The notes below the pieces were generated by a model. The model was not told where the DNA came from. It did no database searches and worked only from the letters and a program-made list of their open reading frames with translations. A stretch of DNA of 38,292 nucleotides. Source: Chrysophaeum taylorii. Lineage: Eukaryota; Sar; Pelagophyceae; Pelagomonadales; Pelagomonadaceae. Of the stretch, positions 11,473 through 33,781 are shown piece after piece (position 1 is the first letter of the stretch; each line of letters opens with the position of its first letter). Location of the stretch: assembly GCA_029834535.1 (NCBI GenBank), contig JAQMWT010000561.1:1-38292 (forward strand), given 5' to 3'. The position numbers were made by a program, and so were the translations under genes.

Positions 11473-12178
11473 TTGTCTGTCCGTTTGTCCCTCGATGTAG
11501 GGTAAGGATCAGATAGGCGCGAGAGTAAGGATCAGGTAGGCCCGAGAGCCAGACAGTGATCCTCCAAGCCGTCTACGGCGACCTCGCAGACTGTTTCCAC
11601 GACCCGCGGCGGCTCTTTCAGCGCGCCATTCTCACGCCCCGTCGAAACGATGTTGTCGATGCTGACAACGCGCGCATGACCGCGGCCTTTTTTTCCCGAA
11701 GACGAGGCGTCGGAGTTCTTTTCGGCCGACTAGGTTGGGTCGGAAGCCGACGCCTCGCTCTTTACAGTCGAGTTTTCAACTCCCTGACAACCAACGGCAT
11801 GCTGACTTTGATCGCGAGCTTAATGTCTTCGCAACCTCGACCCGTCGCACGGCCACTGCAACGGTACCAGATACATGATCGATCGTGTCGTTGTCACCGA
11901 GGCTCCTCCAACCTGTATCGCTTAAGGCCCGCCTACGCCAAACGATCAACAAGAGCCAGGGCCAGACGCCCCGCGAGGTCGGCGTCCTCTTTCCCAAGCC
12001 CGTCTTCTGCCACGTCCAGCTCTACGTGGCTCTCTGTCGATCGGCATCCCCGAGGATATACTCATCTGGGTCGACGACTCCACCCTACCCCACACGTGCT
12101 GCGCAATACCGATAAGCCCCCTCACGGCGTCTACACGCGCACTGTAGGTGAACTTACTGGGACCAGGTGAACTTACTC
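11473..12178 (+). mobile_element. Helitron 3' fragment, copy B (recombinant)
   Basis: Middle Helitron copy of the array. Its 5' half carries copy C alleles (GATGTAGGG, GCCCGAG, CTGTTTCC, AGTCGAG), while its 3' end stops at the same point as copy A, with the retrotransposon tail attached. It is therefore a C/A hybrid with the switch somewhere between about 11770 and 12178. It encodes the same helicase motif V-VI remnants (TINKSQGQT near 11940, LYVALCRS near 12040). A 23-nt internal duplication (TAAGGATCAG...GCGCGAGAG) is shared by A, B and C but absent from D and E. Confidence 0.75.
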
Positions 12179-15125: not shown

Positions 15126-16100
15126 TTGTCTGTCCGTTTGTCCCTCGATGTAGGGTAAGGATCAGATAGGCGCGAGAGTAAGGATCAGGTAGGCCCGAGA
15201 GCCAGACAGTGATCCTCCAAGCCGTCTACGGCGACCTCGCAGACTGTTTCCACGACCCGCGGCGGCTCTTTCAGCGCGCCATTCTCACGCCCCGTCGAAA
15301 CGATGTTGTCGATGCTGACAACGCGCGCATGACCGCGGCCTTTTTTTCCCGAAGACGAGGCGTCGGAGTTCTTTTCGGCCGACTAGGTTGGGTCGGAAGC
15401 CGACGCCTCGCTCTTTACAGTCGAGTTTTCAACTCCCTGACAACCAACGGCATGCTGACTTTGATCGCGAGCTTAATGTCTTCGCAACCTCGACCCGTCG
15501 CACGGCCACTGCAACGGTACCAGATACATGATCGATCGTGTCGTTGTCACCGAGGCTCCTCCAACCTGTATCGCTTAAGGCCCGCCTACGCCAAACGATC
15601 AACAAGAGCCAGGGCCAGACGCCCCGCGAGGTCGGCGTCCTCTTTCCCAAGCCCGTCTTCTGCCACGTCCAGCTCTACGTGGCTCTCTGTCGATCGGCAT
15701 CCCCGAGGATATACTCATCTGGGTCGACGACTCCACCCTACCCCACACGTGCTGCGCAATACCGATAAGCCCCCTCACGGCGTCTACACGCGCACTGTAG
15801 GTGAACTTACTGGGACCAGGTGAACTTACTGGGGTTGGAGATTGGGACTAGGTGAGCTGAGTGACCAGGTGAAACTGGGACCAGGTGAACATACTGGGGT
15901 TTTAGAGCAAAGGGTTTTTAGAGTAAACTCACTCAAAGGTTGGCGGCGCGTGCAGATCGAAGCAGCTTAGATTGGCGGAGGCGAGAGCGACGAGCTCGAA
16001 GGAGTTGGTGTGAGAACTTACTGACCAGGTGAACTTATATGAAACTTACTGGGACGAGGGGTTTAGAGATTGGGAGTAGGTGAACTTACTGGCCTGCACT
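15126..16100 (+). mobile_element. Helitron 3' fragment, copy C, with complete 3' terminus
   Basis: It starts like copy B, encodes the same helicase C-terminal remnants (TINKSQGQT near 15600), and unlike A and B continues through about 270 bp of degenerate subterminal repeats (GGTGAACTTACTGGGACCA and variants) to the terminus GGCCTGCACT at 16091-16100. The same terminal decamer ends copies D and E, so it marks the true 3' end of the family. Confidence 0.75.
15803..16100 (+). repeat. Helitron subterminal repeats
   Basis: At least six degenerate copies of GGTGAACTTACTGGGACCA-type units, interspersed with GGTTTAGAGATTGGGA-type units, precede the terminus. The same units occur inverted at 19667-20180 and 37254-37590. 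Confidence 0.75.
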
Positions 16101-16379: not shown

Positions 16380-17132
16380 TTATTTTTCGGGGTCTTTGAA
16401 AAAATCGCGAGGGGGTTTGCCGAGGGGGAAAGCCCGAATCGTCGCCTGGACATCGTCTGGGGGCACGAAGACGGTGCGGTCTAACGTGTCCTGGTCGAGC
16501 CAGTGGCGGATCACGGCCCAGGCCGTCGCAAACAAGGGCGGAGCCCCCAAGAGGTAGGCACGGGCGAGGCGACCGGGATAGTGGTCGAGGAGACCCACGA
16601 CTGCGTAGACGCATCGGAGAGCGACGGGACGGAGCAACGATCGTCTGTCAGACATTCGTACCAGAATAACAAACTTGCCGCTGCCGAGCGGCGCGTCGGC
16701 CACGCGACACGCGACGTCAAAGCAGTGCGCGGCCGCGTCGCACCATGCCTTCGAGCACTCGGCGTTGGTATCGCCGAATTCCCAAGGGTGCCATTCCTCA
16801 GACTCCAGGACGATCACGGCATCGCCGTCCATCGACCGACCCCCGACCCATAACGCCGTCGTAGCCGCGGGCTCCCGCGGTTCGCACAACCACTTGACGT
16901 GGTTCCGCACGGCGTTCACGGCGGCCTCGGGGTTCGTGTAGACCGCGGCGAAACGCTCGAGGGTTTCCGCTGGAACGGACTTCGCTGCCGCGCGACGAGC
17001 CTCGCGGAGACACGGGTCCAGTGCCGCCAGGGCGAACTCGCGCGGCTCGATCGCGAGCTCGGCGACTTTTTGTTCGACGAACACGAGCCCATCGGCCGAG
17101 TCTTGGGCGGCGAGGAGGGCATCGAGGCTCAT
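16380..17132 (-). CDS. CRAL-TRIO (Sec14-like) lipid-binding protein
   Basis: A 250-residue protein from the ATG at 17132. The N-terminal half is helical and charged and contains a CRAL-TRIO-N-like segment (AALDPCLREARRAAAK). The second half has the Sec14 core: a strand block GDAVIVLESEEWHP, then FVILVRMSDRR, then the hallmark region LLDHYPGRLARAYLLGAP and PLFATAWAVIRHWLDQDT, which matches the 'YPERL...NAP..F...W..IK..LD..T' pattern of phosphatidylinositol-transfer/tocopherol-binding proteins. It likely binds a hydrophobic ligand and links lipid supply to signalling or trafficking. The same frame stays open to 18014, but that part is antisense to the U-box gene and is not protein. It is divergent from the U-box gene, with 127 bp between start codons. 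Confidence 0.75.
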   Translation of the reverse strand: MSLDALLAAQDSADGLVFVEQKVAELAIEPREFALAALDPCLREARRAAAKSVPAETLERFAAVYTNPEAAVNAVRNHVKWLCEPREPAATTALWVGGRSMDGDAVIVLESEEWHPWEFGDTNAECSKAWCDAAAHCFDVACRVADAPLGSGKFVILVRMSDRRSLLRPVALRCVYAVVGLLDHYPGRLARAYLLGAPPLFATAWAVIRHWLDQDTLDRTVFVPPDDVQATIRAFPLGKPPRDFFKDPEK

Positions 17133-17259
17133 CGTCCGTTGATATGTTTCCGTTCGATTTTTTTTCCGAAAGGGGAAGCAAGGATCACACCCCGTATGTT
17201 TTTGAATAATAATTGAAAAAGTTTGCCACAAAAGTTGAATTTCCACACAAGGCCGATCG

Positions 17260-18062
17260 ATGGAATGCGCTCTCGCCGCGGCCTCGATGGACGCGAACGA
17301 GGAGCTGCGGTCGGATCTCGAAGCGCTGGTCGCGAGCGAGGTGGTCGAGATCGTGAAGTTCATGGGATCGGCGCGTTGTCTGTCGATCATCTTTCGCGCG
17401 GGCGCCGCGACACGTCGTGCGTTCTGTTTTCGTCGTCGTCGTCGGTGAGATTGTGCGCAGGTATCGAGGTGTACCGCGGCTACCCGCAGGTCGCGCCGCT
17501 GTGCTTTAAGACACGGCGTCGCGCCGTTGAGATGCCTCCGTGGAACGGCTCGCTCCTCAACCTCTGCGCTGCCTGCGGAACGGTCCCGGACGAGTTCCGG
17601 TGTCCGCTCACCCTGGACGTCATGACGCGGCCAGTACGTCTCCTGACGCCCTGCGATCGCCGCTACGAACAAGCGGCGATCGAACGTTGGCTCGAAGAGA
17701 AACCTCGCCGCGATCCGATGACGGGCATCGACCACGACCCCCCCCTGCGCTTTAAGCCCGACCCACGCCTGCAGCGTCGCATCGAGGTATGGCGCCGGGG
17801 CGAGGACCGCGCCTTTACTACTACTATCAGCCGTCTCCTTTCCAGCATCCGCAGCGACTTGGTCGACGCGAGGCGGCGCGCCACCGTCCCTCGCCGCAAG
17901 CGCGAGGACATCTACATCAACGGCCGCTGCGTCTGGCTTTGGGAAGACAGCAGCGACTCCGAGGACGGCTCGTCTTCCGTATGGAGGAGGAGGAGGAGGA
18001 GGAGGACGGCTCACGACGACGACGACGACGACTCGATTATTATTCCTCGCGCGGTCTTTTAA
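17260..18062 (+). CDS. U-box domain protein, probable E3 ubiquitin ligase (two exons)
   Basis: Exon 1 is 17260-17416 and exon 2 is 17461-18062, giving 252 residues. The N-terminus (MECALAAASMDANEELRSDL) is ordinary protein; after the splice comes IEVYRGYPQVAPLCFK. The U-box runs from PDEFRCPLTLDVMTRPV through PCDRRYEQAAIERWL to DPMTGIDHD, covering the fold of U-box E3 ligases that recruit E2 enzymes without zinc. The C-terminus is basic, then acidic with aspartate and arginine runs from GAC and GGA repeats. As an alternative to the intron, a single missing G near 17445 would also join the frames, adding AFCFRRRRR. Substrate unknown. Confidence 0.7.
17417..17460 (+). other. Candidate 44-nt intron in the U-box gene
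   Basis: The donor GTGCGT is identical to that of the PRA1 intron, the body is T/C-rich (TTCTGTTTTCGTCG) and the acceptor is GCAG. Removing it restores frame between a plausible exon 1 and the U-box exon. A simple one-base indel in the CGT repeat is the alternative. Confidence 0.5.
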
Positions 18063-18224
18063 GTCTGAAGTTCAAGGTATTGCCACGTCAGTATGTTGAA
18101 GATCCCTATGCCCGAATAAGGGCCCTTGGTGAGAATGAGAATCATCGCAACAAAAACAACGCAGCGACATCGCCTCGCTCAAGGAAGAGGACGTTGTTAG
18201 GTGGTTAATATCCTAGGACGGAAG

Positions 18225-19628
18225 ATGAAGATCGCCTTGGTGACGCTCGGGTCCCGCGGGGACGTCCAGCCATACCTCGGCATCGCCCTGAGTCTGAAAG
18301 AAGCGGGGCACGCGGTGACGATTATGACGAGCGTGGACTTCGAGTCGGCCGTGGCCGAGCAGGGCATCGCGTTCCGCGGTATCTTCCAGAGCATCAAGCA
18401 CAAGCTGCAAGGTGACCTGAAGAAGTCGATGGCGTCGGGGGACGCAACCGAATTCGGCAAGTTCATGTCGCGATGGCTCGGCGACGAGGCCGCCGACGAG
18501 CATTTCGGGAACTGGCTGTCGGCGACGCGGGACCTCGAGCCCGACATCGTGCTCGTCGGCACGCTGTGCGACTTTTACGGCGTCGTGGGCCGCTACGTAC
18601 TGCGGATTCCAACCATTTTTGTGCGGCTGTTTCACGTTCAGTACGACGCCCCGAGAAACTACTTTGGTCTGCCCACGTTGCCGCTAGGGTTGACCAAGTA
18701 TGCCGTGCAGTACTTCGTCGAACATTTTGTTCGAAAGAGCTGGAAGGGCCGGCTGAACGAGGCGTGCAAACGAGAGCTCGGCGTCGACGCGTACCGATTG
18801 TACTCGAACGACCTCTACGCGGCCGACACCCAGAACCCGTGGCTGACCGACCTCGTGGTTGCCCAGCCAATTGAACTCGCCCAAATCTTGCATCCCGGAC
18901 GCTCCCCGAGAATCAAGTGCGTTGGGTATTGCGTCCTCTCCGACCAGAGCCACAACGACGTCTTTTTCGGCAATCGACGCGACCTCGCGCGCGTCGACGC
19001 GTTCCTCGAGAAGCACCCCAAGGTCGTCTACTGCGGCTGGGGTTCCATGATCTGTCCCGACTACATGCCTGGCCTCGTCGTCGGCGCTATCCGCCGCGCG
19101 AAGCTCCCCGCGATCATTTTTCGCGGCGAGGCCCGCCTTTCGCTTCCAAACGAATCCGCCGACGACTTATTATTCGTCGACTCGATGCCCCACGAAATTC
19201 TCTTTCCCAAGTGCGATGTCGTCTGGCATCACGGCGGTGCCGGAACGACGGCCGCCGCGATGCGTGCTGGTCGACCCCAGATCATTACCCCCGTTTTTAT
19301 GGACCAGTACGACCACGCTCGAGCGATCAACGTCCTTGGAATTGGCTTTGGCTTCGAGAAGCAACTCCACAAAATCACAATGACCGAGCTCGCCGATGCC
19401 CTCGTCCGGTGCGCCAACGACCCTGCCGTGGCCTCGACGGCGCGCAACCTTGCCCCGTCCGTCAAGGCCCAGGACGGCAACAAGGCCATCGTCGACCACG
19501 TCCACCACGTCTGGCACAACGAGGTCCTTCCGGGCCACCACAAGGCCGCCCTCGACCGCAAGTGCCAGGAGCGCGCCGACGCCATCCTCCAAGAAGACAC
19601 ACAAAAAAATGGATGCACCCCCATGTAG
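18225..19628 (+). CDS. GT28/GT1-type UDP-glycosyltransferase (sterol glucosyltransferase-like)
   Basis: A 467-residue single-exon protein. The N-terminus MKIALVTLGSRGDVQPYLGI is the hallmark of the family that includes sterol 3-beta-glucosyltransferases (GSRGDVQP). A central acceptor-binding half follows, then the nucleotide-sugar site: YCGWGSM near residue 268, FVDSMPHEILFPKCD, and HHGGAGTT near residues 335-342, followed by PVFMDQYDHA. This GT-B protein transfers a sugar from a UDP-sugar to a lipid or other small hydrophobic acceptor. No membrane segment or sterol-binding PH/GRAM domain is present, so it is the catalytic part only. The GTG at 18201 is in frame, but the ATG at 18225 fits the family start. 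Helitron copy D lies 38 bp after the stop. Confidence 0.9.
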   Translation: MKIALVTLGSRGDVQPYLGIALSLKEAGHAVTIMTSVDFESAVAEQGIAFRGIFQSIKHKLQGDLKKSMASGDATEFGKFMSRWLGDEAADEHFGNWLSATRDLEPDIVLVGTLCDFYGVVGRYVLRIPTIFVRLFHVQYDAPRNYFGLPTLPLGLTKYAVQYFVEHFVRKSWKGRLNEACKRELGVDAYRLYSNDLYAADTQNPWLTDLVVAQPIELAQILHPGRSPRIKCVGYCVLSDQSHNDVFFGNRRDLARVDAFLEKHPKVVYCGWGSMICPDYMPGLVVGAIRRAKLPAIIFRGEARLSLPNESADDLLFVDSMPHEILFPKCDVVWHHGGAGTTAAAMRAGRPQIITPVFMDQYDHARAINVLGIGFGFEKQLHKITMTELADALVRCANDPAVASTARNLAPSVKAQDGNKAIVDHVHHVWHNEVLPGHHKAALDRKCQERADAILQEDTQKNGCTPM

Positions 19629-19666: not shown

Positions 19667-20850
19667 AGTGCAGGCCAGTAAGTTCACCTAGTCCCAATCT
19701 CTAACCCCAGTAAGTTCACCTGGTCCCAGTAAGTTCATCTAGTCCCAATCTCTAACCTCAGTAAATTCGGCGTAAACCCACTCGTGCTCACATCCACTCA
19801 CCCCACTCCCATCTGAACTCGTCGCTCTCACCCCCGCCAATCTAAGCTGCTTTGATCCGCACACGCCGCTAGCCTTTGAGTTTACTCTAAAAACCCCAGT
19901 AAGTTCACTTGGTCTCAGTAAGTTCGCCTGGTCACTAAGTTCACCTAGTCCCAATCTCAAACCCCAGTAAGTCCACCTGGTTCCAGTAAATTCACCTGGC
20001 CCCAGTAAGTTCACCTACAGTGCGCGTGTAGGCGCCGGGAGGGGGCTTGAGTTTGAGTTGTCAAAAAACTCCAGTAAGCTCACCTGGTCTCAGTAAGCTC
20101 ACCTGGTCACTCAGTTCACCTATTCCCAATCTCGAACCCCAGTAAGTCCACCTGGTCCCAGTAAGTTCACTTACAGTGCGCGTGTAGACGCCGGGAGGGG
20201 GCTTATCGGTATTGCGCAGCACGTGTGGTGTAGGGTGGAGTCGTCGACTCAGAAGAGCATATCCTCGGGGTTGCCGATCGACAGAGAGCCACGTAGAGCT
20301 GGACGTGGCAGAAGACGGGCTTGGGCAAGAGGACGCCGACCTCGCGGGGCGTCTGGCCCTGGCTCTTGTTGATCGTTTGGCGTCGGTGGGGCTTAAGGGA
20401 TACAGGTTGGAGGAGCCTCGGTGACACGACACGATCGATCATGTATCTGGTACCGTTGCAGTGGCCGTGCGACGGGTCGAGGTTGCGAAGACTTTAAGCT
20501 CGCGATCAAAGTCAGCATGCCGTTGGTTGTCAGGGAGTCGAAAACTCGACTGTAAAGAGCGAGGCGTCGTCTTCCGACCCAACCTAGTCTGCCGAAAAGA
20601 ACTCCGACGCCTCGTCTCCGGGAAAAAAGGCCGCGGTCATGCGCGCGTTGTCAGCATCGACAACATCGTTTCGACGGGGCGTGAGAAGGGCGCGCCGAAA
20701 GAGCCGCCGCGGGTCGTGAAAATAGTCTGCGAGGTCGCCGCAGACGGCTTGGAGGATCAATGCCTGGCTCGCGGGCCAAACTGATCCTTACCCTAAATCG
20801 GGGGACAAACAGACAGACAGACAGACAAACATCTGTCAATTAGTAGTAAG
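19667..20850 (-). mobile_element. Helitron 3' fragment, copy D (inverted, 3' end partly duplicated)
   Basis: Inverted relative to A-C. The terminus (read as GGCCTGCACT on the minus strand) is at about 19667-19677. Subterminal repeats run to about 20180, and a helicase remnant follows at 20203-20756 (TINKSQGQT and VFCHVQLYVALCRS, plus RALLTPRRNDVV further upstream in the gene). The junction segment GTGCGCGTGTAGRCGCCGGG occurs twice (near 20022 and 20176), so the 3' end is tandemly duplicated. The helicase frame here reads FFPGDEASEFF, which is closer to an intact Helitron helicase than A-C, which have an extra T. The far end shares a TGTC/TGTT tract and CTACTAATTGACAG with copy A. Confidence 0.75.
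20203..20756 (-). pseudogene. Helitron helicase C-terminal remnant (copy D)
   Basis: On the minus strand, from about 20756, the translated pieces match the end of a Pif1-like Helitron helicase: LADYFHDPRRLF, then ALLTPRRNDVVDADNARM, then (another frame) VSPRLLQPVSLK, TINKSQGQTPREVGVLL and HVQLYVALCRS. An in-frame TAG and frame changes show it is not functional. Everything upstream of helicase motif IV, including the Rep domain, is absent. Confidence 0.65.
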
Positions 20851-21248: not shown

Positions 21249-21408
21249 ATCCGACCATCCATCGATTCGTGACGCGCTGTGGCGCGTCCTCCGACCGTCC
21301 ATCGGTTCGTGACGCGCTGTGGCGCGTCCTCCGACCGTCCATCGGTTCGTGACGCGCTGTGGCGCGTCCTCCGACCGTCCAGCGGTTCGTGACGCGCTGT
21401 GGCGCGTC
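21249..21408. repeat. Four tandem 40-bp repeats, each with a hairpin
   Basis: The unit starts TCCGACCGTCCATCGGTTCG and ends TGACGCGCTGTGGCGCGTCC. Each unit contains a perfect 7-bp inverted repeat GACGCGC/GCGCGTC with a TGTG loop. Units 2 and 3 are identical; units 1 and 4 differ at a few positions. A further diverged unit just downstream (about 21507 onward) is the insertion site of the gypsy element. Confidence 0.9.
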
Positions 21409-21483
21409 CTTTCTTTCTCACGTTCCCTTCCTTAACTCTCCACATCCTGGGAGGTACAATCTTGCAACCAGGAAAAAAATGTA
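21400..21483. repeat. Direct repeat flanking the gypsy insertion (left copy)
   Basis: About 80 bp (GTCCTTTCTTTCTCACGTTC ... CAGGAAAAAAATG) recur at 29385-29467 on the far side of the gypsy element with a handful of substitutions. The host site was thus already a two-copy array of [hairpin unit + this segment] before the insertion. Confidence 0.8.
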
Positions 21484-21520
21484 TGCTCAACAACATACTT
21501 TATACTTCCATCGGTTCGTG

Positions 21521-21525
21521 ACGCG
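21521..21525. repeat. Target-site duplication, left (ACGCG)
   Basis: ACGCG immediately precedes the 5' LTR and reappears at 29374-29378 immediately after the 3' LTR, the 5-bp duplication expected of Ty3/gypsy integrase. Confidence 0.9.
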
Positions 21526-21862
21526 TGTGGCGGCAACTTCCGCCTCCTAAGGCTTACCCCTCTTCTAGGGCCCCCCCTTATCAGGGGCACCCTACTCCGT
21601 TCCGATGATGTCAGTGTTCTCTATGACATCATCTTCCTTTTCCGTGACGCATGTCACCCTGATTTCTGATTTTCGATTATCCTTGATCATAAAGCAACAG
21701 CCGATCCTCAAGTTGAGAGGACCAGGAACGGAAGTTGTTTGTGGTCGTGTGGCGGGAGAACGGCCATCCTCGTCCAGTGACACCACCAAGGGCACGGACC
21801 CGATCGGCGAGCCAGGATTCGAAGGCACGCCAGGTAGCCCCTAAAATTCTCCTTACGCCACA
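21526..21862 (+). repeat. 5' LTR of the gypsy element
   Basis: 337 bp, beginning TGTGGCGGCAACTTCCGCC and ending CTCCTTACGCCACA, with 7-bp terminal inverted repeats TGTGGCG/CGCCACA. It differs from the 3' LTR at about six single positions, with no length change. It should contain the promoter and transcription start of the element. Confidence 0.95.
21604..21633 (+). promoter_or_regulatory. 10-bp perfect inverted repeat inside the LTR
   Basis: GATGATGTCA is followed ten bases later by its complement TGACATCATC. The same structure is conserved in the 3' LTR (about 29116-29145). TGACATCA resembles half of a bZIP (CRE/ATF-like) site. It may be a transcription-factor site or an RNA hairpin in the 5' leader; this is inference. 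Confidence 0.45.
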
Positions 21863-21864
21863 GG

Positions 21865-21887
21865 TGGTGGAGGAATACGAGATTCGA
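21865..21887 (+). promoter_or_regulatory. Candidate primer-binding site
   Basis: Three bases after the 5' LTR comes TGGTGGAGGAATACGAGATT followed by CGA. Its complement ends in CCA and includes a TCGAATC stretch at about T-loop distance, as expected of a tRNA 3' end. I cannot assign the tRNA, and the spacing is one base off the canonical layout. Confidence 0.4.
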
Positions 21888-22326
21888 GCGACTATATCGG
21901 TCGCAGCGAACTAGTGCATCTTGCATTCTCTACACGGTCCGGACAAGCCGTGCGCGCCCTGATCAAGCGCGCCGACAAGGAATTCCAGAAGGACCATTGC
22001 CGTGGGAAAGTTCCCCGGCCGGATACGTTAGTCGTCGGAAGTGACGACGCGCGATTTGGTGCTAACCGACGCGCAACCCGGGTACCGCTGCCGCAGGCGA
22101 GCGGAGTGAGATCGCAACTCACGGATAAGGCATTGTTGCCGGGCAGAGACGAGTTCTGCCGCCCACCGTACGGATAGATTTGTCGGTGGAAGACGCACGC
22201 AACGACGATATTACGCGTGTTGTGGACGATTAGAAGTTCCAGAGCCGAAGGAGCACGAGAACGACGACGACTCAACCATTTTGGACCCGCTCTGATCTCG
22301 GCCGACTAGAACGAGCCAGAGCCGAT

Positions 22327-23044
22327 ATGGAAGACGATGACGCTGCCGTCGAGCAGCTACGATATGAAGAACCGCCAAGCCGTCAGGATGAGACGAACGA
22401 GCGGAATTACGATGAGGATAATGATGACGATGAAGAAGAGCACGATACAGAAGTTGACGAGGAAGAAGAGCTAAACTACAACGACGGCAAGCCCACGGAG
22501 AGACCGACGGGAGGACGATCGACAGCTCCGTCAACGCGTGCAGAACCCCCGGATGCAACGAAAATGAATGAGTTCTACGAGGCTCACTTGCGGGCATTAC
22601 GCGAAGAGAACGAACGCGCGCAAGAACGACTTTTAAAACTAATAGGGGAAGAGAACGAACGAAAATAACGGCTACAACGGAAGGAGAAAGAAGAATTAAA
22701 AGAGCAACTGCGTCGGGCCAACGCTCGAGCGGACGCCTTCCAAGAGCAAGTAAGCTCGTTGACCCGTGAAAGAGACTAGTTACGTACGCCGAGTCGATCA
22801 AGGCGAGCGAGCAGCCCGGAGTCCCGAGCTGAGGAAGAGCCGCCGACTACACGATCACGCGCGAAAGCTAGAAAGCCGCGCTATGAAGACGATGATGAAG
22901 AAGAAAGGAGGAGACGCGTGGCGCCGGAAAGATCGACACCCAGGAGTTCTTGATGGGTTTTACGGATCGACTCGCGAGCGCGTTAGCTAGACACGATCGC
23001 AACAAGGAGCGGCGATCAACCTCTGGATTAAAAACCGAAACTTT
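22327..23044 (+). pseudogene. Gag-like acidic coiled-coil region of the gypsy element
   Basis: From the ATG at 22327: an acidic N-terminus (DDDEEEHDTEVDEEEE), then a charged heptad-like segment (EAHLRALREENERAQERLL) that continues in the same frame past TAA (22666-22668) and TAG (22777-22779). After a frame change near 22935 comes EFLMGFTDRLASALARHDR, which looks like a Gag helical segment. No zinc knuckle is evident. The two stops lie at positions where CAA and CAG (Gln) would fit the coiled coil, so C-to-T changes are likely. Host genes use TAA and TAG as ordinary stops, so codon reassignment is not the explanation. Confidence 0.55.
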
Positions 23045-23074
23045 TTAACTGGTTCTCGATGGACGCGATCAGGA

Positions 23075-23650
23075 TTGAATACGACGACGATCCATCGTTG
23101 GATCGCCCTTCGGGTCGCTTTCGCCGACGACTTCGCTGCCCCCATTGTCGCTATTGTAGCCGATACGAATTATCTGTTCCTGTTGGGAGGGCGCGATATA
23201 CGAGTTTTAGGAGCCATCGTGGATTTTCCCCATGATCGGATCTGTTTTTGTCGAACCCAAGTCGTCTACGGGCGCAAGAAGATTAAAGTTAAGGACGAAC
23301 GAGTCGATGCACCAATCGTGACCTTTCGGGCTATTTACGATCGAAATCCGATAACCGTACCGATTTACAATCATCAACACGATGCCTTTCGGCAGAGTCT
23401 CGACCTGGTCAAGACTCAAGTTTACGCTCGTTTAAGCACGATTAAAGATCTCCGAAGCCCGCCGCCGGAACGTAAGGTAGCCTTGGCTACGCGGGGACAT
23501 GCTACGACCACATTCTCCCCAGCCCCGGGAGAAGACACGCGAGAAGTAATAGCTTATGCTGCGCGCACGCTTCAAATCGAGCCCGGTCGAACGTACAATC
23601 ACCGGTTATTTTGTCGAAACCTATGGGAAGAGGACAGGTTTTCGTCGCTA
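23075..23650 (+). pseudogene. Protease-like region of gypsy pol
   Basis: The frame 23075-23824 contains FLLGGRDIRVLGAIVDFPHD (about 23165-23235), matching the second half of retropepsin-like aspartic proteases (the LLG-RD-L...GA-IDF pattern). The catalytic DT/SG segment that should precede it is not recognisable, so either the N-terminal part is lost or it lies in a damaged frame. Downstream, in the next frame (23611 onward), ARVAVTATEEVPTAVTQGEV fits the typical gypsy spacer between protease and RT. Confidence 0.45.
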
Positions 23651-24089
23651 CGTTTGCTGAGAACGAGCAGTTGGGAGTTGTCGAAGGAATGTGTTCTTCT
23701 TGCGAAGAGCGCAACCGGTCCGCTGCTCGGGTGGCGGTTACTGCCACGGAAGAAGTGCCGACGGCCGTCACTCAAGGCGAAGTCCTTGCGATTGGTGATA
23801 TCGTTAGATACGAAGATGAGTTGAACGTCTCTACGATCAATGAACTTACGAAAGAATGTGAAGAAGGATACGACAAGGGGAACCTTTCTTTCACCGTTTC
23901 TGTCGCTAGTCACTGGACGCGATGCGACGAATCTCCCCCGCCGATGCTGCTGAGCACGGTGCAGAAGGACGCTACGACCGCCATGACGGACAAGTCCACC
24001 CCCAAACGACCTGAAGGCAGCGACGATTTCGCTCGAAGGTCGGAAGAAGATGAAAAGAAATGCCGCGAGATCACCGAAGCGGAGATCCG

Positions 24090-24965
24090 CCGCCGATATG
24101 AAAAGGTTCAATGGCTTCCAATCACTTATCGCAAGGTGGTGATGCTGTTCAGTGGAGCCGGAGGCAGTACTTTAGGTCTCCAACGAGCCAACGAAACGTG
24201 TGGGACGTCGTTTCGAGTCGTGCTAGCACTCGATGCGTCGGACACCGCCAACCAGATCCACCACAAGAACTTTCCGAATATTCCTGTGGTGCAGCACACA
24301 TTGTGTGGTCGCTATGTTACAACCTTACGGTTGATCGAATCTTATTTACCCTACGCGGAATGGTCGTCGTCGATGTGTGTCGCGTCGCCACCCTGCGTAC
24401 ACTCCGCTCTGTGCAACTTGACCTCCAGAGATGTTGGGAAAGGAGTTACCGCTACCCACTGGACGATGAAATTATGCAAGATGGCTGGTTTCTTCATGTG
24501 GTTGATAGAGCAGGAGGCTTCGATTATTTCTTACGTTGCACGTTTGCACCCGTACGTATACGTCGTCAATTTTTACGACATAACTCCTAGTTTGATGAGC
24601 TGTCGCGTGCGATTGTTGGTTTCCAGCCATCCGCTCCATTTGCGCGCAGTTCCAAAGCCTGCAAGAATATGCAGCAAAAGTTCGCCGCAGCACTTGGCTA
24701 CACCGACGAACGACATTTACTTCAGATGAACAAGTTAGGATCATCACGAGCCGCGACAGACGCAGCTTATACTGTTGCGCGTGTCCCGCTTCGCGTAGGA
24801 CCGCACCGTTCCGATTGCAGATCTCTGAATTTGGAAATGACTTCGGAGTTGCTGACGATGCCCCCTGATTTTGATTGGGCCGGCCTCTCCAAGACGACCT
24901 CGTTGAAACACTTGGCGTCCGTCGTGCCACCTGACACGATAGCTTTATTAATACTCGATCTGCAC
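24090..24965 (+). CDS. C5 cytosine DNA methyltransferase domain within gypsy pol
   Basis: In frame with the preceding pol spacer (frame from 23611): motif I LFSGAGGSTLGLQRA at about 24147-24190 (SAM binding), an acidic VLALDAS (motif II), and the catalytic ASPPCVHS (motif IV, Cys of PPC) at 24382-24405. Motif VIII-like RVRLLVSS lies at about 24605. After a change of frame near 24630 come the motif IX-X hallmarks SLNLEMTSELLTMPPDF and HLASVVPPDTIALLIL (about 24826-24960). The ENV motif VI is not recognisable around 24500-24560, where the sequence may be damaged. Target-recognition sequence between VIII and IX is compact. The order, spacing and both signature motifs make the family assignment strong; activity of this copy is doubtful. 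Coding continues directly into RT, so the domain is part of the polyprotein and not a nested gene. Confidence 0.85.
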
Positions 24966-25469
24966 AACTCTGTGACCAAGGAATTTTGCCCGAGCGGCGA
25001 AACTTTGCCGTCAGCGTTGAGTCCTGCAGACCGACCGTTTGATTATTATTTACAAATTGATGAAACCACCCTTCGTCACGTACAAGTTCCGCTGTTAAAC
25101 ACGCGCACACGTGTCGTAAGATGGGTGTCGACTGATGATCTTCAAGATCGCACCAAATGGAAACCTCCAGAGGTACCGTTGATTCCGCCTGCAACAGATG
25201 AGCCGGGGACGTCTCATGCTTCTTCTGCTGCCCCCCCCCGACAACCAAATTTAGACGTTCCGCCAGATCCTGAGCGAGATCGGGAACCGAAGATTAAGAG
25301 CGAGCCGAGTGTTCGTGTCAAAGGCGAGAGGATCAACAAAAGCCACCCGGAAGTGAAACTAAAATACGAGAAAAAGTTCGATGTGCCATGGAAAGATGCG
25401 CCGCGCGATGCCGAGGGTGCACCACTGCCGCAGACTCCGGAGCATGTCAAGAACAACGAAGCAATGAAA

Positions 25470-26408
25470 GTTCAAATTCCTACGAAGGAAGAAGTTGACA
25501 AGGTTGTGCAGGAACTGGGAATTCCTGACAATCCGCACTTAGATGACGAGGCGAAACTGATGCTCCGTCACTGTGTGCAATATTCTTGGGCCTTTTTCGA
25601 CCCGATTATGAGACCTGTGGACTCGCCTCCTGTGTCTCTACGATTCAAAGACGCGAATCCGCGACCGATAAAGATGACGCCCTACCGATTGACGCCTGCG
25701 AAGCTCGATTGCCTCCGCAAGCAGATCAGCGAGTGGTGCCGGGATGGAGTCATTCGTCCGGCCAACTCACCTTGGGGCTTTCCTGTGTTGATGCTTCCGA
25801 AGAAAGGAGCTGAGATTGGAACGTCAAACGCGTTCCGTGCTGCAGTTGACTTACGTCAGCTCAACGATCAATTGGTCAATGACAGTTGGCCAAACATTCG
25901 ACAAGATGATGCTTTAGCCTTTCTCGCGATGAGACGATGGCGGACATGCATTGATATTAGATGGGGATACCACAACCTTCGTCTGGATCCGGCAGCGCAG
26001 GACGCTGTCACGATGGTTAGCCCACTTGGCGCTCACAGTTTCTTGCGATTACCTCTAGGTGTGAAGACGGCCGGAGCTCTTTTCTGCAAGCAAATGGCGA
26101 GCGACCTTTCGAAATGGATGTATCAAGACTTGGTTGCGTTTGTTGACGATATTATGATGGGATCCGACGATCTTCATCGACATTTACAAGTTTTGATCGA
26201 AGTGATGTGTCATTTGGCACAGAGAGGGTACAGCGGTCGAACCGCGAAGTTCCACCTTCTCAAGGATGATATAGAATTTCTGGGACACATTTCTACCCCA
26301 GAAGGCTTGAAGCCGAATCCAAAAGAGAAGCACTACAGAAGATGCCGATTCCAGGTACTTTGCCGAATACTTCCCCGAAGACCCAGATACGTTCTTTCAT
26401 CGGCATGA
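25470..26408 (+). pseudogene. Gypsy reverse transcriptase domain
   Basis: In the frame 24669-26408, RT begins near 25590. Visible blocks are KMTPYRLTPAKLDCLRKQI, DGVIRPANSPWGFPVLMLPK, AAVDLRQLND, CIDIRWGYHNLRL, the SFLRLPLGVKTAGALF block (PFGL-NAP-F equivalent) and the active site VAFVDDIMMGSDD at about 26130 (FVDD in place of YVDD). The frame then breaks near 26335 in a run of four As; five would join it to RNase H. The domain itself is intact and matches Ty3/gypsy. Confidence 0.88.
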
Positions 26409-28996
26409 GTAATTACTGCCGGCGATATGTGAAGGGCTACTCGAAGATTGTGGAACCGTTGAGACGATTATGCCTCGAAGGTGTAAAGTTCGAGTGGACG
26501 CCCGAGTGTCAGAAAGCTTGGGATACGATTATTGAAGCTTTGGTTGATTCCCGTGGAGTCTACCACGCCGATTATGATCTGCCTTTTCAGATCCGATCCG
26601 ATGCTTCCAAGGATGGACTTGGAGCATATCTCTTCCAGATTGTCGAAGTCAAGGACGATGCCGGAAGAGTGACTCGAGAAGAACGAGTAATTGAATACTG
26701 GAGCCGAGCTGTGCCGAAGGAGATGCGGAATTATGAGCCCCGTCGGCTAGAGCTGCTGGCAGTTATACTTTCTCTAGAGCACTTTCGAGCCTACATCGAA
26801 GGGCACCGGACTGTTTTGGAGACCGATCACCGAAATTTGACGTTTTTACGTAAGGCGACGCACTCGTCTGGGCAGCTTGCTCGTTGGGCGATGCGCCTCG
26901 CCAATTTTGACCCTGAACTTGGTTACAAGCCGGGAAAGTCACCGGGAATGAGTATCCCTGACTGTCTCTCCCGCAACCCGATAGATCATGTCATCGAGAC
27001 TGACGAGTTTGGAGAACCTTTGAACCACGCTTATTTAGTGTTCCAAGAGCTTCCCCGACCTGTTGATGACCGAGGAGTTCCCGTCTCTGGCTGCCACTTC
27101 ATAATGTCGTTTATTACGACCGAACTGCCGGAAGACAAAGACGAAGACCCTGAAAAGGATCCGATGAAATTGGCTACGTCTCACGCTACGAGACAACGTC
27201 GGAAGAACCGTGCGCGCGATGAGCCACAGATCTTCAAGGACGCAGCCGCTTACAAAGATTATATCGATAAGATACCCGATAATATGACGCTCGTTGAGAT
27301 CGCACGTGAGCAAGAATCTGATGCTACTTGCGAGGATATTCGCTACCGAATGGCCCAAGGTCAGACGCCGCGACGTTCCCGAGCGAACGAACGATTCGAA
27401 GTCGTTAAAGATGTTCTTTACCGCATTTCTGCTGATTCGCACCCGATGATTGTTGCACCTGCTACGTTGCGCAACCGCATTATTCGACTCTATCATGACA
27501 CTCCGGTTAACGGTGGTCATATGGGACGTCACAGTACCGTCCAGGCTATCCAAGAACGATTTTGGTGGCCTCATATGTCGAACGAAGTTGGAGTCTTCAT
27601 TGCTGAATGCTTAGTTTGCCAGAAAGCTCGTACGCCGGAGCCGAAACGAGCTGGACTCTTGCAGCAGCCCGTCTACGATGGTGATGGTGCTGTTCTTTGC
27701 ATGGATTTATTTGGACCCTTGCCCAGCGCTGGTCCCGAGACGTATCTTCTAGTATTTTTTGATCCGTTCTCGCATTTCTTGATTCTGGATGTTTTGAACG
27801 ATAAGACCGCTGAGTCTGTCCTTGAGTCTTTTGTCATTAACATTCTCCTCAAGGGCTACTTGCCCCAGGTGATTCGTACCGACAACGGTAAAGAGTTCGT
27901 GAACAAGTTGATGCGCGAGTTTTGCCATCTCTTTAACACACGATACCAAACTACGATTCCTTATCATGCCCAGTCGAACCCGGCTGAGCGTGTCAACCGA
28001 TTTATCAAGGCCTTCCTCCGTGCTTGCCTTCAAGGCCGGAACATCACGGATTGGCCTGACTTTGCTCATTATATTGCGTTTTGCTACAACCGCAAGTTTA
28101 TTCCAGGCACGCAGATTTCTCCCTTTATGCTGCGCCTGAACCGTCAGCCGATGCTGCCGACTGACTACACGCTCATGGATTTTGATACACGATTGTTGCC
28201 GAAGACTCGCTCTGATGCAGTCGCCGAGACTCGCGAACGATTGAAATATTATACAGAGATCGTCCGCGAAGCTCGTGATAAAGCTTTGAAGAAACAGCGA
28301 TTGGCTTACAATGCTGATCATGTTGATGTTGAATACAAGGAAGGATCGCACGTTTTGCTCTACATCCCTTTCCTTCAGAACAAATTTCGACCGGAATGGC
28401 GAGGGCCGTTTATTATCAAGGAACGCCTCTCCCCGGTCACCTATAGGATTGAGTCTCTCGACTCGCCGCCCGAAGAGCGGCGTGTTCATGTAAGTCAGAT
28501 CACGCCTGTGATGGTACCTCCGATTGTTGATCAAACCATCCGCAAACCCGAAGAAACCTTCCGTGATGATTATCAGCACGGTAAGTTTGTTGTTTTCCGA
28601 ATTCCCGACCGGAAGCGCTCCGATTGGCGCAAGAAGGTTTATGTTGCTGAAGTTTACGAGCCTTACGATTACCAAAATGATCGTGTTGCTCTACATTTCT
28701 ATTCCGATTTGGGTCCGAACGATGATGTCGCTTATTTCAAGCCGACCTCTCACCTTTCGCACCGCAAGCTCAAGCCCGAATTCAAGGACATTGAAGGTCG
28801 AAGTTTCACCGACAAGTCCCGAATTTCCTCCAACACAACTCCTTGTGTCACGGATTTCTCTCCACACGAGATTGACGTGTTGGTCCCCAAGTTTACTTTA
28901 CGCAGTGGTCGCGTTCCTGAACCGATCATCACCCGCGTTTACCAGAAGATTCGTTCACGAGATGCTCGTAAGGCGAAGCCGCGCTCCTCGCGCTAG
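26342..28996 (+). CDS. Gypsy RNase H - integrase - C-terminal extension
   Basis: 884 codons. Residues 20-50 are the end of the RT connection (FIGMSNYCRRYVKGYSK). RNase H follows with FQIRSDASKDGLGAYLF, ELLAVILSLEHFRAYIEG and TDHRNLTFLRK. The integrase zinc domain (GGHMGRHST ... CLVCQKA) is at about 27500-27635, and the catalytic core shows D (MDLFGPLP), D (RTDNGKEF) and E (NPAERVNR) at about 27700-28000. A GPY/F-like module (FRPEWRGPFIIKERLSPVTY) lies near 28395. About 150 further residues follow with a basic end and no known gypsy counterpart I recall (see findings). TAG at 28994-28996. This half of pol is undamaged. Confidence 0.9.
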   Translation: MPIPGTLPNTSPKTQIRSFIGMSNYCRRYVKGYSKIVEPLRRLCLEGVKFEWTPECQKAWDTIIEALVDSRGVYHADYDLPFQIRSDASKDGLGAYLFQIVEVKDDAGRVTREERVIEYWSRAVPKEMRNYEPRRLELLAVILSLEHFRAYIEGHRTVLETDHRNLTFLRKATHSSGQLARWAMRLANFDPELGYKPGKSPGMSIPDCLSRNPIDHVIETDEFGEPLNHAYLVFQELPRPVDDRGVPVSGCHFIMSFITTELPEDKDEDPEKDPMKLATSHATRQRRKNRARDEPQIFKDAAAYKDYIDKIPDNMTLVEIAREQESDATCEDIRYRMAQGQTPRRSRANERFEVVKDVLYRISADSHPMIVAPATLRNRIIRLYHDTPVNGGHMGRHSTVQAIQERFWWPHMSNEVGVFIAECLVCQKARTPEPKRAGLLQQPVYDGDGAVLCMDLFGPLPSAGPETYLLVFFDPFSHFLILDVLNDKTAESVLESFVINILLKGYLPQVIRTDNGKEFVNKLMREFCHLFNTRYQTTIPYHAQSNPAERVNRFIKAFLRACLQGRNITDWPDFAHYIAFCYNRKFIPGTQISPFMLRLNRQPMLPTDYTLMDFDTRLLPKTRSDAVAETRERLKYYTEIVREARDKALKKQRLAYNADHVDVEYKEGSHVLLYIPFLQNKFRPEWRGPFIIKERLSPVTYRIESLDSPPEERRVHVSQITPVMVPPIVDQTIRKPEETFRDDYQHGKFVVFRIPDRKRSDWRKKVYVAEVYEPYDYQNDRVALHFYSDLGPNDDVAYFKPTSHLSHRKLKPEFKDIEGRSFTDKSRISSNTTPCVTDFSPHEIDVLVPKFTLRSGRVPEPIITRVYQKIRSRDARKAKPRSSR

Positions 28997-29026
28997 CACC
29001 TCGCTGGGGCAGCTCGAATTCTTACC

Positions 29027-29033
29027 AGGGGAG
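29027..29033 (+). promoter_or_regulatory. Candidate polypurine tract
   Basis: AGGGGAG lies three bases before the 3' LTR, in the place where plus-strand priming occurs. It is short for a polypurine tract. Confidence 0.4.
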
Positions 29034-29036
29034 TCG

Positions 29037-29373
29037 TGTGGCGGCAACTTCCGCCGCCTAAGGCTTACCCCTCTTCTAGGGCCCCCCCTTGTCAGGGGCA
29101 CCCTACTCCGTTCCGATGATGTCAGTGTTCTCTATGACATCATCTTCCTTTTCCGTGACGCATGTCACCCTGATTTCTGATTTTCGATTATCCTTGATCA
29201 TAAAGCAACAGCCGATCCTCAAGTTGAGAGGACCAGGCACGGAAGTCGTTTGTGGTCGTGTGGCGGGAGAACGGCCATCCTCGTCCAGTGACTCCACCAA
29301 GGGCACGGACGCGATCGGCGAGCCAGGATTCGAAGGCACGCCAGGTAGCCCCTAAAATTCTCCTTACGCCACA
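29037..29373 (+). repeat. 3' LTR of the gypsy element
   Basis: 337 bp, same ends as the 5' LTR and about six substitutions from it. It is followed at once by ACGCG. Confidence 0.95.
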
Positions 29374-29378
29374 ACGCG
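29374..29378. repeat. Target-site duplication, right (ACGCG)
   Basis: Matches 21521-21525. Beyond it the interrupted hairpin repeat unit resumes (CTGTCCTGTGGCGCG). Confidence 0.9.
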
Positions 29379-29384
29379 CTGTCC

Positions 29385-29467
29385 TGTGGCGCGACCTTTC
29401 TTTCTCACGTTCCCTTCCTTAACCCTCCACGTCCTGGGAGATACAATCTTGCGACCAGGAAAAAAAT
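29385..29467. repeat. Direct repeat flanking the gypsy insertion (right copy)
   Basis: Second copy of the segment at 21400-21483, with a few substitutions (for example CCACGTCC for CCACATCC). Confidence 0.8.
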
Positions 29468-29499
29468 GAATAAAATGAATAACCCATGCACTCGTGGCA

Positions 29500-29570
29500 T
29501 CTCAGAAACGGGAATCGAACCCGTGGCAAGCCGATGGCAACGGCTTATGTTACCACTACACCATTCTGAG
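29500..29570 (-). tRNA. tRNA-Gly (anticodon GCC)
   Basis: On the minus strand: acceptor stem CTCAGAA pairs with TTCTGAG, and a 4-bp D stem encloses a loop with AGTGGTA. The anticodon stem AGCCG/CGGCT encloses loop TTGCCAT (anticodon GCC), the variable loop is TGCC, and the T arm is ACGGG-TTCGATT-CCCGT. Discriminator A at 29500. All stems pair fully and Pol III B-box sequence GGTTCGATTCC is present. No intron. A T-run follows within about 40 bases downstream. The gene lies 127 bp from the gypsy 3' LTR, with the element on its 3' side. Confidence 0.93.
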
Positions 29571-31669: not shown

Positions 31670-32392
31670 ATGGGTCGAAGTAAGAAGAAGTTGGTGGTGC
31701 CCGTGGTGGGCAAGCCCATGAGGTCTCGGCGCGAGGCGCGGCGCGTCACGACGGCGTTCCACCGGCTGTCGGCGGCCGCCCAGTCTGACCCCGAGTTGGG
31801 GGGAGAGGTCGAACGGCTGCGGGCGCGGTACCAAGAAGCTAGCGCACTGTCGACGTCCATGTACTCGACGAGCCGTTGGGTGCTGCGAATGGTCCGAAAG
31901 CTCGATGCCGGACGCAGGCTGTTGGAGGTCGGCGCGGTGAACACGCAGTTGGTGGAGTCGAAGCTTGTCGAGACGCGGGCCATCGATCTGAGGGCATCGC
32001 ACCCGAAAATCGAGAGGCTGGATTTCTTCGACGTTCGCGGAAAATTCGAGATTGTCGTGTGCTCGTTAGTGTTGAACTGCGTCGTCCCCGAAAAGCGAGG
32101 AGCCATGCTGCGCAAGCTCCGGGAGCACGCGTTGGGGGGGTTAGTGTTTCTGGTGATTCCGAGGTCGTGCGTCGAGAAGTCGCGACGCATGACGCCGTCG
32201 AAGTTCGAGACCATTCTCGATGACGTTGGATTCCTCCAGCTCCGCCGGCACCTCACTCCAAAACTCATCCATCTCTGCCTCACCCCGAAATCCCACCCCT
32301 TTCCCGCCGCCGCCGAAATGGAGCCCCCCGTCGAGCGACTCCGCGTCCACAAACCCGCGAACGACTTCGACATACCCTTGGTATTAGAGTGA
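31670..32392 (+). CDS. Bmt2-like 25S rRNA adenine-N1 methyltransferase
   Basis: 240 residues from the ATG at 31670 (MGRSKKKLVVPVVGKPMRSR). The basic N-terminus, an ERLRARYQEASALSTSMYST segment, the SAM-binding RLLEVGAVN (about residues 83-91), IDLRASHPKIERLDFFD, and CSLVLNCVVPEKRGAMLRKL followed by FLVIPRSCVEKSRRM match the Bmt2/SAMTOR-like Rossmann methyltransferases; the NSR/KSR segment and basic N-terminus favour the rRNA enzyme over SAMTOR. It would act in the nucleolus on large-subunit rRNA. Its last nine bases overlap the stop region of the convergent alpha-galactosidase gene. Confidence 0.8.
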   Translation: MGRSKKKLVVPVVGKPMRSRREARRVTTAFHRLSAAAQSDPELGGEVERLRARYQEASALSTSMYSTSRWVLRMVRKLDAGRRLLEVGAVNTQLVESKLVETRAIDLRASHPKIERLDFFDVRGKFEIVVCSLVLNCVVPEKRGAMLRKLREHALGGLVFLVIPRSCVEKSRRMTPSKFETILDDVGFLQLRRHLTPKLIHLCLTPKSHPFPAAAEMEPPVERLRVHKPANDFDIPLVLE

Positions 32393-33694
32393 GGCGATCC
32401 TGCTACTCCAAGGGTGGCCCGGACGCTCGATGAGGAGGAAGGCGGCGTCGTGGGGGGCGATGGTCGTGGTGAAGTTGGCCCCAAACGTACCGAGATCCTC
32501 GCGGCGAAAAAGATCTCGCACGACGCATTCGTCGTCGTCGTCGTCGTCGCCGCACGGCAGGTTTGGAATTTGGCGAAAGGAAAGAGTAAAGAAACGCGAA
32601 GTCGTGTCCGAGTTAAGCACGAGGACGGCCGTCGCGTCGTCGGAGAGCGGTTTGTAGAGGTATTGCCATTTTGGGACTAAATACGAATCCGAGAGGAGGA
32701 CCGAACCCGCCGACCGCAGAAACATTGATCCGGAGTGGCCGTGCCAGGCCTGGTTGACGGAAATGATTTCGGGGTTGGCGATGAGGTCCCAGTAGGTGTC
32801 CATTATGGTGTCGTTGGTGACGTCGAGGCCGAGGATGAGGGGCGACGATACGATCGCCCAACCGCCAAAGTGCGAGCGAGACTCGGGGAGAGAGAGGCCC
32901 TCGTCGAGGGATCCTCCGGGGCCGTCCTCGCACCCCACCTCGATCATATCGGGGTAGGCCCAGCACCCCGGGTACGAGAGGTTGGCGACGGCAAACTCCT
33001 GCGTCGTCCCCAGATTGTACATCACTTTGCCGTAATTGGCTCGAACGTCGCTCGACGTGCGATAATAGTTAAACGGACACCACGTCGCGTTCGGGACGGT
33101 CTGGCCCCAGTGGCAGTTCTCGATCATGATGGGGCCCGAGGCATTCAACAGGTCGGCCCACAACTGCAGGTCCCGCTGAGCCGAGCACCCGTCGAGCTTG
33201 ACGCCGTCGAACCCGAATTCGAACAGCGCGGCCGCGTCGCCGCGATAACACGAACCATCCGTCTCGCCGAAATCCACCTTGTCCCCGCAGTGGTCCTGGC
33301 AGATGCAGTTGTTGAGGTACCACCCCGCCGTCAGGTTCAGAGAGTGAGCCTTTGTCGTCATCGCGATCATGTCGGGAAACAGCGCGCCGTTTACCACCGG
33401 AAACAAGCCGCCGGACGCGTGGAACGTGTACGCTTCGGGACCGTAACTCCCGCACGACTGCCAGTTGTCGTCGAGCCCGACGTCCCGATACCCGAGGTCC
33501 GCGAGGCTTGTCGGAATGCCATCGACAAATCGCGACTTGGACACCATACCCTCCATGATTTTTTCCATCAGCTCCTGCGACACGTTGGCCCCGAACAAGT
33601 TCCACGACCGCCATCCCATCGGCGGCCTCATCCCCAGCCCGTTGTCGATCCCCGACCCCACCCGAATTAACAACAACATCACAACCAAATTCAT
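32384..33694 (-). CDS. Alpha-galactosidase, glycoside hydrolase family 27
   Basis: 436 residues from the ATG at 33694, which begins a signal peptide (MNLVVMLLLIRVGSG). The conserved N-terminal block GLGMRPPMGWRSWNLF follows, then LGYRDVGLDDNW, LTAGWYLNN, the nucleophile block GVKLDGC (Asp about 168), and the acid/base block RTSSDVRANYG (Asp about 216). WAYPDMIEVG and HFGGWAIVSSPLILGLD complete the (beta/alpha)8 barrel. The C-terminal beta domain contains an acidic GACGAC-encoded run (CGDDDDDDEC). It is a secreted or vacuolar enzyme removing terminal alpha-galactose from oligosaccharides. The frame is open further upstream (to 33781) but only through non-ATG codons. Confidence 0.92.
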   Translation of the reverse strand: MNLVVMLLLIRVGSGIDNGLGMRPPMGWRSWNLFGANVSQELMEKIMEGMVSKSRFVDGIPTSLADLGYRDVGLDDNWQSCGSYGPEAYTFHASGGLFPVVNGALFPDMIAMTTKAHSLNLTAGWYLNNCICQDHCGDKVDFGETDGSCYRGDAAALFEFGFDGVKLDGCSAQRDLQLWADLLNASGPIMIENCHWGQTVPNATWCPFNYYRTSSDVRANYGKVMYNLGTTQEFAVANLSYPGCWAYPDMIEVGCEDGPGGSLDEGLSLPESRSHFGGWAIVSSPLILGLDVTNDTIMDTYWDLIANPEIISVNQAWHGHSGSMFLRSAGSVLLSDSYLVPKWQYLYKPLSDDATAVLVLNSDTTSRFFTLSFRQIPNLPCGDDDDDDECVVRDLFRREDLGTFGANFTTTIAPHDAAFLLIERPGHPWSSRIASL

Positions 33695-33781
33695 CTTGTC
33701 CTTGTCGTCGTCGCGGGAACACATCATATCGTCGTTCGTGAGTGAGCACACCCACACCCACAAATGCTTTGATTGAGCCAA

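Follow-up and report, generated by a model that had tools for sequence, protein, structure and literature searches.

A C5-type methyltransferase (MTase) domain is encoded in Pol as an inherited part of a Ty3/gypsy retrotransposon lineage of the alga Chrysophaeum taylorii. Four subfamilies (A, A′, B and C) have arisen within the lineage, and the domain is held under purifying selection with its catalytic residues kept. One copy, a Ty3/gypsy LTR retrotransposon, occupies positions 21526–29373 of the window, i.e. the whole stretch of DNA that was analysed (38,292 nucleotides; contig C561), and relatives were sought in the assembly of the same alga (70.8 Mb, 697 contigs). The features of this copy, in window coordinates, are as follows.

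21521..21525, unstranded: left target-site duplication, ACGCG (direct comparison of the element flanks)
21526..21862, plus strand: 5′ LTR, 337 bp, beginning TGTGGCGG and ending CGCCACA; 331/337 positions identical to the 3′ LTR, no gaps
~24088..24960 (approximate ends), plus strand: C5-cytosine methyltransferase domain (motifs, Pfam and tblastn for the window; relatives), with a frame change at ~24653
24151..24180, plus strand: motif I SGAGGSTLGL, SAM binding (translation of the window)
24382..24396, plus strand: ASPPC (motif IV), whose Cys is the catalytic residue (translation; invariant in profile A1, see below)
24508..24516, plus strand: E-Q-E, its first Glu matching the ENV Glu of motif VI (alignment)
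24604..24627, plus strand: motif VIII-like RVRLLVSS, RxR (translation, A1 alignment)
24858..24956, plus strand: motifs IX-X, MPPDF...VVPPDTIALLIL, in the other frame (profile alignment; matches even without motifs I/II)
25797..26291, plus strand: reverse transcriptase (RT), RVT_1 (Pfam, E 9.1e-13)
26570..26908, plus strand: RNase H, RT_RNaseH (Pfam, E 7.2e-26)
27458..27634, plus strand: integrase H2C2 zinc-binding domain (Pfam, E 4.5e-18)
27686..27967, plus strand: integrase core, rve (Pfam, E 3.4e-12)
29037..29373, plus strand: 3′ LTR, 337 bp
29374..29378, unstranded: right target-site duplication, ACGCG (direct comparison of the element flanks)

The two LTRs differ by 6 mismatches and 0 gaps over 337 bp, and this divergence of 1.8% agrees with the value of about 2%, and with the recently active lineage, that a sequence-only reading of the window had proposed. 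LTR comparison and Pfam likewise recovered the matching LTRs, the 5-bp target-site duplication, the RT, the RNase H and the integrase named there; the Pfam order RVT_1, RT_RNaseH, H2C2, rve is that of Ty3/gypsy, with RT-RNase H upstream of the integrase. All peptides cited for the MTase (SGAGGSTLGL, ASPPC, RVRLLVSS, MPPDF and VVPPDTIALLIL) are present in the window. The first three share one frame with EQE, whereas MPPDF (24858–24872) and VVPPDTIALLIL (24921–24956) lie in another, which is common to RT. The window copy is therefore frameshifted within the domain, a lesion that had gone unmentioned, and tblastn with the domain of another copy places the shift at ~24653. A second break puts RT and RNase H in different frames.

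From 23060 to 29374 the window matches copy L052 at 98%. Apart from the LTR, the stretch 21863–23059 has no blastn match (E <= 1e-20) to L052, which reaches 2 kb further upstream. Hence, the 5′ internal part of the window copy was rearranged or lost, together with the L-D-T-G motif of L052. This motif occurs in both L052 and L017; in L052 it lies upstream of the MTase and is presumably the sign of a protease. Pfam gave no protease match in the copies' sequence examined. At the two junctions between LTR and internal sequence, where a tRNA primer-binding site and a polypurine tract would be expected, no primer was assigned. The proposed position of the domain between protease and RT thus stands in part: the domain is upstream of RT and, in L052, downstream of L-D-T-G, whereas the window copy has no in-frame DTG or DSG within 21862–24100.

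As to the surroundings of the element, a tRNA-Gly(GCC) gene lies on the minus strand at 29500–29570, 126 bp past the 3′ LTR. The element is thus located immediately beyond the 3′ end of the tRNA gene, a position that may be compared with the Ty3-like targeting of Pol III genes. The element is inserted within repeated DNA (21250–21484 and 29384–29471), with a 40-bp tandem repeat ~115 bp before the 5′ LTR and an 88-bp stretch (93%) present in both flanks. Elsewhere, the window contains tandem blocks with a 3.65-kb period at 7816–15872 (98–100% identical; two or three copies, depending on the block), with inverted partial copies at 20099–20628 and 37511–38038. It also carries host-like genes at 752–2389, 16383–18071, 18201–19625 and 32387–33781 (sulfatase, CRAL/TRIO protein, glycosyltransferase of the family 28 / EryCIII-like type, and alpha-galactosidase).

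Judged by profile comparison, the domain is a C5 methyltransferase by descent. With a cut-off of 22 bits, PF00145 matched the isolated domain of L017 (27.9 bits), L054 of subfamily B (37.6 bits) and L055 (22.4 bits); the window's own frame stayed below it at 20.3 bits, and in subfamily A the match spans motifs I-II only. PHROGs DNA-methyltransferase families were matched by all ten members of profile A1 (best E 1.8e-11), which was built from 10 natural copies out of 36 A or B loci. Aligned by hhalign with a DNMT profile made from 26 of 57 database C5-MTases returned, A1 gave a probability of 99.0% (E 7e-18) over 270 columns from motif I to X. The controls remained low (20/20 column shuffles at <=0.8%, the reversed profile at 0.7%), and even after removal of motifs I-II, motifs IX-X by themselves reached 71.9% (20 shuffles <=0.3%). 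A structure model of 190 window residues (24082–24651), built with DNMT rows, has a pLDDT of 73.3, and every one of the 35 PDB chains that it matches at E <= 0.001 is of the C5-MTase type; since its alignment consists of DNMTs, the model is only supportive. VIA-align gave no discrimination for the MTase domain.

GxGG, PPC, EQE, RxR and VPP are invariant in A1. The Pro-Cys nucleophile of motif IV occurs in 10/10 A1 members and, as TPPC, in L075; in the profile alignment the ASPPC Cys falls on PPC, and the leading Glu in IEQE on the ENV Glu. Across subfamilies of 39–45% identity the catalytic Cys, the Glu at the ENV position and RxR are kept. It is important to note that the Asn-Val of motif VI ENV is replaced by Gln-Glu, the Glu being retained, and that the Gly-Asn (GN) of motif X is absent, so that catalysis is not certain. 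These two departures, and a few derivatives that do without the domain, would fit a module that is no longer an MTase and serves as a SAM fold for nucleic-acid binding, particle assembly or polyprotein spacing. We regard this as quite unlikely, as a scaffold would not need a Cys, Glu and RxR that are invariant in A1 and kept in L075 while the subfamilies are only ~40–45% identical.

The host genome holds many relatives. At least 150 matches were found for subfamily A (best 150 of 517 candidates scored) and at least 134 for subfamily B (best 126 of 890 candidates scored). In 5 of 20 subfamily-A loci, a set that includes the window's own copy, the frame runs unbroken from motif I to the RT motif NSPWGF (L006, L013, L014, L017 and L019). 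L052, a longer piece around L013, consists of one 2,639-aa frame, open at the locus start, which carries MTase and RT to the end of pol. Subfamily B has the MTase followed by the RT, in the same order as A, with a domain 39–41% identical to that of A. L075, which represents subfamily C, is 45% identical to A across 296 residues and retains TPPC, IIEQEPSI, the RRR motif and VIPP. The domain could instead be a host gene that happened to insert into a single element, or its motifs a chance likeness, and the window's own frame, with its match to Pfam in motifs I-II only and below the cut-off, would by itself suit such a reading. We rejected it as having a negligible probability in view of the number of A and B matches, the open frames, the selection described below and the hhalign result with its controls. 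The sequence-only reading, which had placed a C5-MTase domain inside the gypsy pol frame upstream of RT and had taken it for a part of the element, was thereby confirmed by Pfam on relatives, hhalign and the unbroken frames, and we hold both the C5-MTase identity and the membership in the element to be nearly certain.

Between A (L052) and its sister A′ (L055), the MTase has a dN of 0.110 and a dS of 2.09 (near saturation), i.e. a dN/dS of 0.053. For the same pair, RT gave 0.028 and the upstream pol stretch 0.124, and wrong-frame controls gave 1.43 and 5.25. The ratio of the MTase is 0.051 for A vs L074 and 0.266 for the young pair A′ vs L074; further young pairs, from four copies each, range from 0.03 to 0.21 in B (6 pairs) and from 0.14 to 0.67 in A (6 pairs). 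Since the A–A′ ratios are close to those of RT and the young pairs are higher, the domain has been conserved almost as tightly as RT for as long as the lineage has existed, with recent copies drifting. The higher values of young pairs are as expected if many copies decay.

The host has DNMT-like genes of its own. On C621, one 2,086-aa frame combines a DNMT domain with an SNF2 helicase, which is the DNMT5 arrangement according to the available text of PMC3145265 and PMC12344493, and C634 carries a Dnmt2-like gene (named by eye). Against this background, the MTase, as part of the Gag-Pol polyprotein, would be packaged with RT in the particle and would act in cis, on nucleic acid of the element itself. 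The most probable target is newly made cDNA, which would be methylated before integration, and the incoming copy would then carry cytosine methylation that the host DNMT5-like enzyme could keep. The benefit may be to evade recognition as foreign DNA, or a self-limiting silencing. We give this reading of a packaged, Pol-encoded MTase that methylates its own cDNA before integration a probability of roughly 0.5, held there mainly because of the missing CpG footprint and the MTase-less derivatives presented below; cDNA as the substrate, taken separately, falls slightly short of an even chance. As each family comprises far more than a hundred copies that might supply enzyme, the MTase could also act in trans on host chromatin or other elements, for example by interfering with host silencing. 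This is improbable, as a domain fused to RT and integrase is more likely to work inside the particle.

Among the matches listed in an RVT_1 search of the genome, about 25 gypsy-type RT places, counted by eye, have no adjoining MTase match among those listed, and the upstream stretch of ten was examined. Two (L070, L071) are without the domain, two (L073, L076) retain the motif I part only, L078 has fragments, L077 and L079 have partial or frameshifted domains, and L072, L074 and L075 carry the domain, L072 with a frame change. In the same genome search, several RVT_1 matches, among them the four with the best scores, were found on the single contig C696 and are perhaps organelle group II intron reverse transcriptases. 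A query spanning the loss junction gave at least 149 matches, of which four places span the junction.

C248:16164-16451: MTase-loss junction, full query spanned
C394:33303-33590: MTase-loss junction, full query spanned
C335:27319-27567: MTase-loss junction, query 14-96, with a stop; fetched, no MTase
C209:18366-18654: MTase-loss junction, two overlapping pieces

A branch of subfamily B therefore dropped the MTase yet still made copies, perhaps helped by relatives; two of the four MTase-less Gypsy-B derivatives are in frame through the junction.

Heavy germline CpG methylation normally leaves a clear excess of transitions. In the mutational comparison of copies we saw no sign of it: transitions at CpG relative to other C/G sites amount to 0.89 in A (all 190 pairs of 20 loci), 1.14 in B (all 66 pairs of 12 loci) and 1.19 in copia elements of the same genome (113/378 pairs of 28 loci, the rest being too short or too diverged), no trinucleotide exceeds 1.95x the mean in transitions among copies, and the CpG o/e in the element is 1.28. 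Either the copies thus lack heavy CpG methylation, or the mark is transient, lies in another context or on RNA, or is well repaired. The suggestion of the sequence-only reading that the element's own cDNA or new insertions could be methylated is a hypothesis; the copies' mutations give no CpG sign, and a few derivatives lack the domain.

Copies without a CpG footprint would also be compatible with an MTase that methylates RNA, either the genomic RNA or the tRNA primer, and so aids stability, packaging or priming. The best single-sequence PDB matches are DNMT2 chains, weak as they are (E 0.043 and 0.049; in another search the best E was 0.45), and an RNA substrate was raised for SymbioLINE-Dnmt in the discussion section available from PMC5890265. 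Direct sequence comparison yields few matches beyond the host genome (P0001, E 7e-6; P0002, E 5.4e-4; P0003, E 0.99). All carry PF00145, two of them under the name DNA (cytosine-5)-methyltransferase, although names are no test of substrate; together with the alignment from motif I to X of the profile of 26 such proteins, they argue against RNA as the substrate, which we consider unlikely. P0001 and P0002, the sole matches at E <= 0.01, are prokaryote-like C5 MTases that share the GAGG of motif I, PPC and the VPP of motif X with the gypsy domain. They differ from it in having ENV and the motif X GN, and are 35–37% identical over 27–28% of the query.

PF00145 has at least 121 matches in the host genome (best 123 of 474 candidates scored), and many of them represent another multicopy family of the Ty1/copia type (G000:C96, C4, C582 and others; L023–L050, L053), for which at least 152 matches were obtained (best 150 of 522 candidates scored). 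Its context was read from L053, the one copy covered in full. In this 1,952-aa frame, an I-D-G-G-A-S motif at residue 81, presumably protease-like, precedes the DNMT domain (residues 349-475 match PF00145), and the frame also contains a weak match to rve and a copia-type RT (RVT_2). PCQ and ENV are present in the domain, and its motif I is degenerate; a profile made from 8 copies out of 29 loci matched the DNMT profile at 97.1% over 153 columns. It is under purifying selection, with a dN/dS of 0.11–0.19 (6 pairs of 4 copies) vs 0.84–2.94 in wrong frames. The gypsy and copia profiles show no mutual recognition (0.1%), and by sequence the copia DNMT domain is not recognisably sister to the gypsy one. 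A wider scenario would be that gypsy and copia elements independently took up different C5-MTase domains in the same polyprotein slot, just after the protease-like region, to act on reverse-transcription intermediates. They would then be convergent self-modifying retroelements, selected for by the cytosine-marking system of the host, and derivatives that lost the domain secondarily would make use of enzyme supplied by their relatives. We offer this scenario tentatively and consider it rather doubtful.

C697 carries a single red-type rbcL (form ID by eye), flanked by rbcS- and cbbX-like frames (assigned by eye). Red-type rbcL is a plastid gene of red-lineage algae; to our knowledge, it is not one of charophytes or of peridinin dinoflagellates such as Symbiodinium. 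No DNMT3 occurs among the PDB sequence matches of the gypsy domain (3 in one search, 4 in another) or the 50 fold matches listed. As no Dnmt3 match appears in the sequence or fold lists and the host has a plastid-borne red-type rbcL, the proposed capture was probably separate from those in the dinoflagellate and charophyte elements already described.

DNMT-bearing retrotransposons are already known. The available text of PMC5890265 reports SymbioLINE-Dnmt, SymbioDIRS-Dnmt3 and KnitGypsy-Dnmt3, with purifying selection. In yeast, de novo CG methylation is carried out by the SymbioDIRS-Dnmt3 domains, and the KnitGypsy-Dnmt3 domain had no activity there, a result that the authors call inconclusive (PMC5890265, same portion). 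One of the closest counterparts, KnitGypsy-Dnmt3 of Klebsormidium nitens, similarly has a DNMT domain in a Gypsy Pol ORF, is multicopy and evolves under purifying selection (Ka/Ks <0.2, vs ~0.05 for A–A′ here). As described in those excerpts, it is Dnmt3-related and has a DIRS-like repeat structure, whereas the element in the window has plain direct LTRs and a 5-bp target-site duplication and its host a plastid-borne red-type rbcL. SymbioDIRS-Dnmt3 and SymbioLINE-Dnmt of Symbiodinium are also multicopy retrotransposon C5-MTases, the DIRS version sharing its ORF with RT, but belong, according to the same text, to DIRS (tyrosine recombinase) or LINE elements and not to LTR elements with an rve-type integrase. 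The accessible part of PMC12344493 states that Copia-type LTR elements and DIRS elements also harbour some DNMT3 members; the copia cases resemble our second family in having a DNMT domain in a copia-type element, and are DNMT3 of streptophytes and dinoflagellates, whereas the copia domain found here combines PCQ and ENV with a degenerate motif I. The available portions of PMC9998398, PMC3145265 and PMC6338049 mention no MTase-bearing element beyond the known ones. Nor did a literature search of titles and abstract openings, with most subscription journals and all of bioRxiv outside its reach, return any further such element. What is new here is an alga with a plastid-borne red-type rbcL, no Dnmt3 signal seen, and two LTR superfamilies.

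Usually the host methylates and the element suffers; retrotransposons with a DNA methyltransferase of their own invert this picture. Within ~71 Mb, gypsy subfamilies with an MTase, derivatives without it and copia elements with another one exist side by side. With these element types in one genome, the methylome of a single alga could compare insertions of similar age with and without an encoded enzyme, and thereby test the role of the domain.
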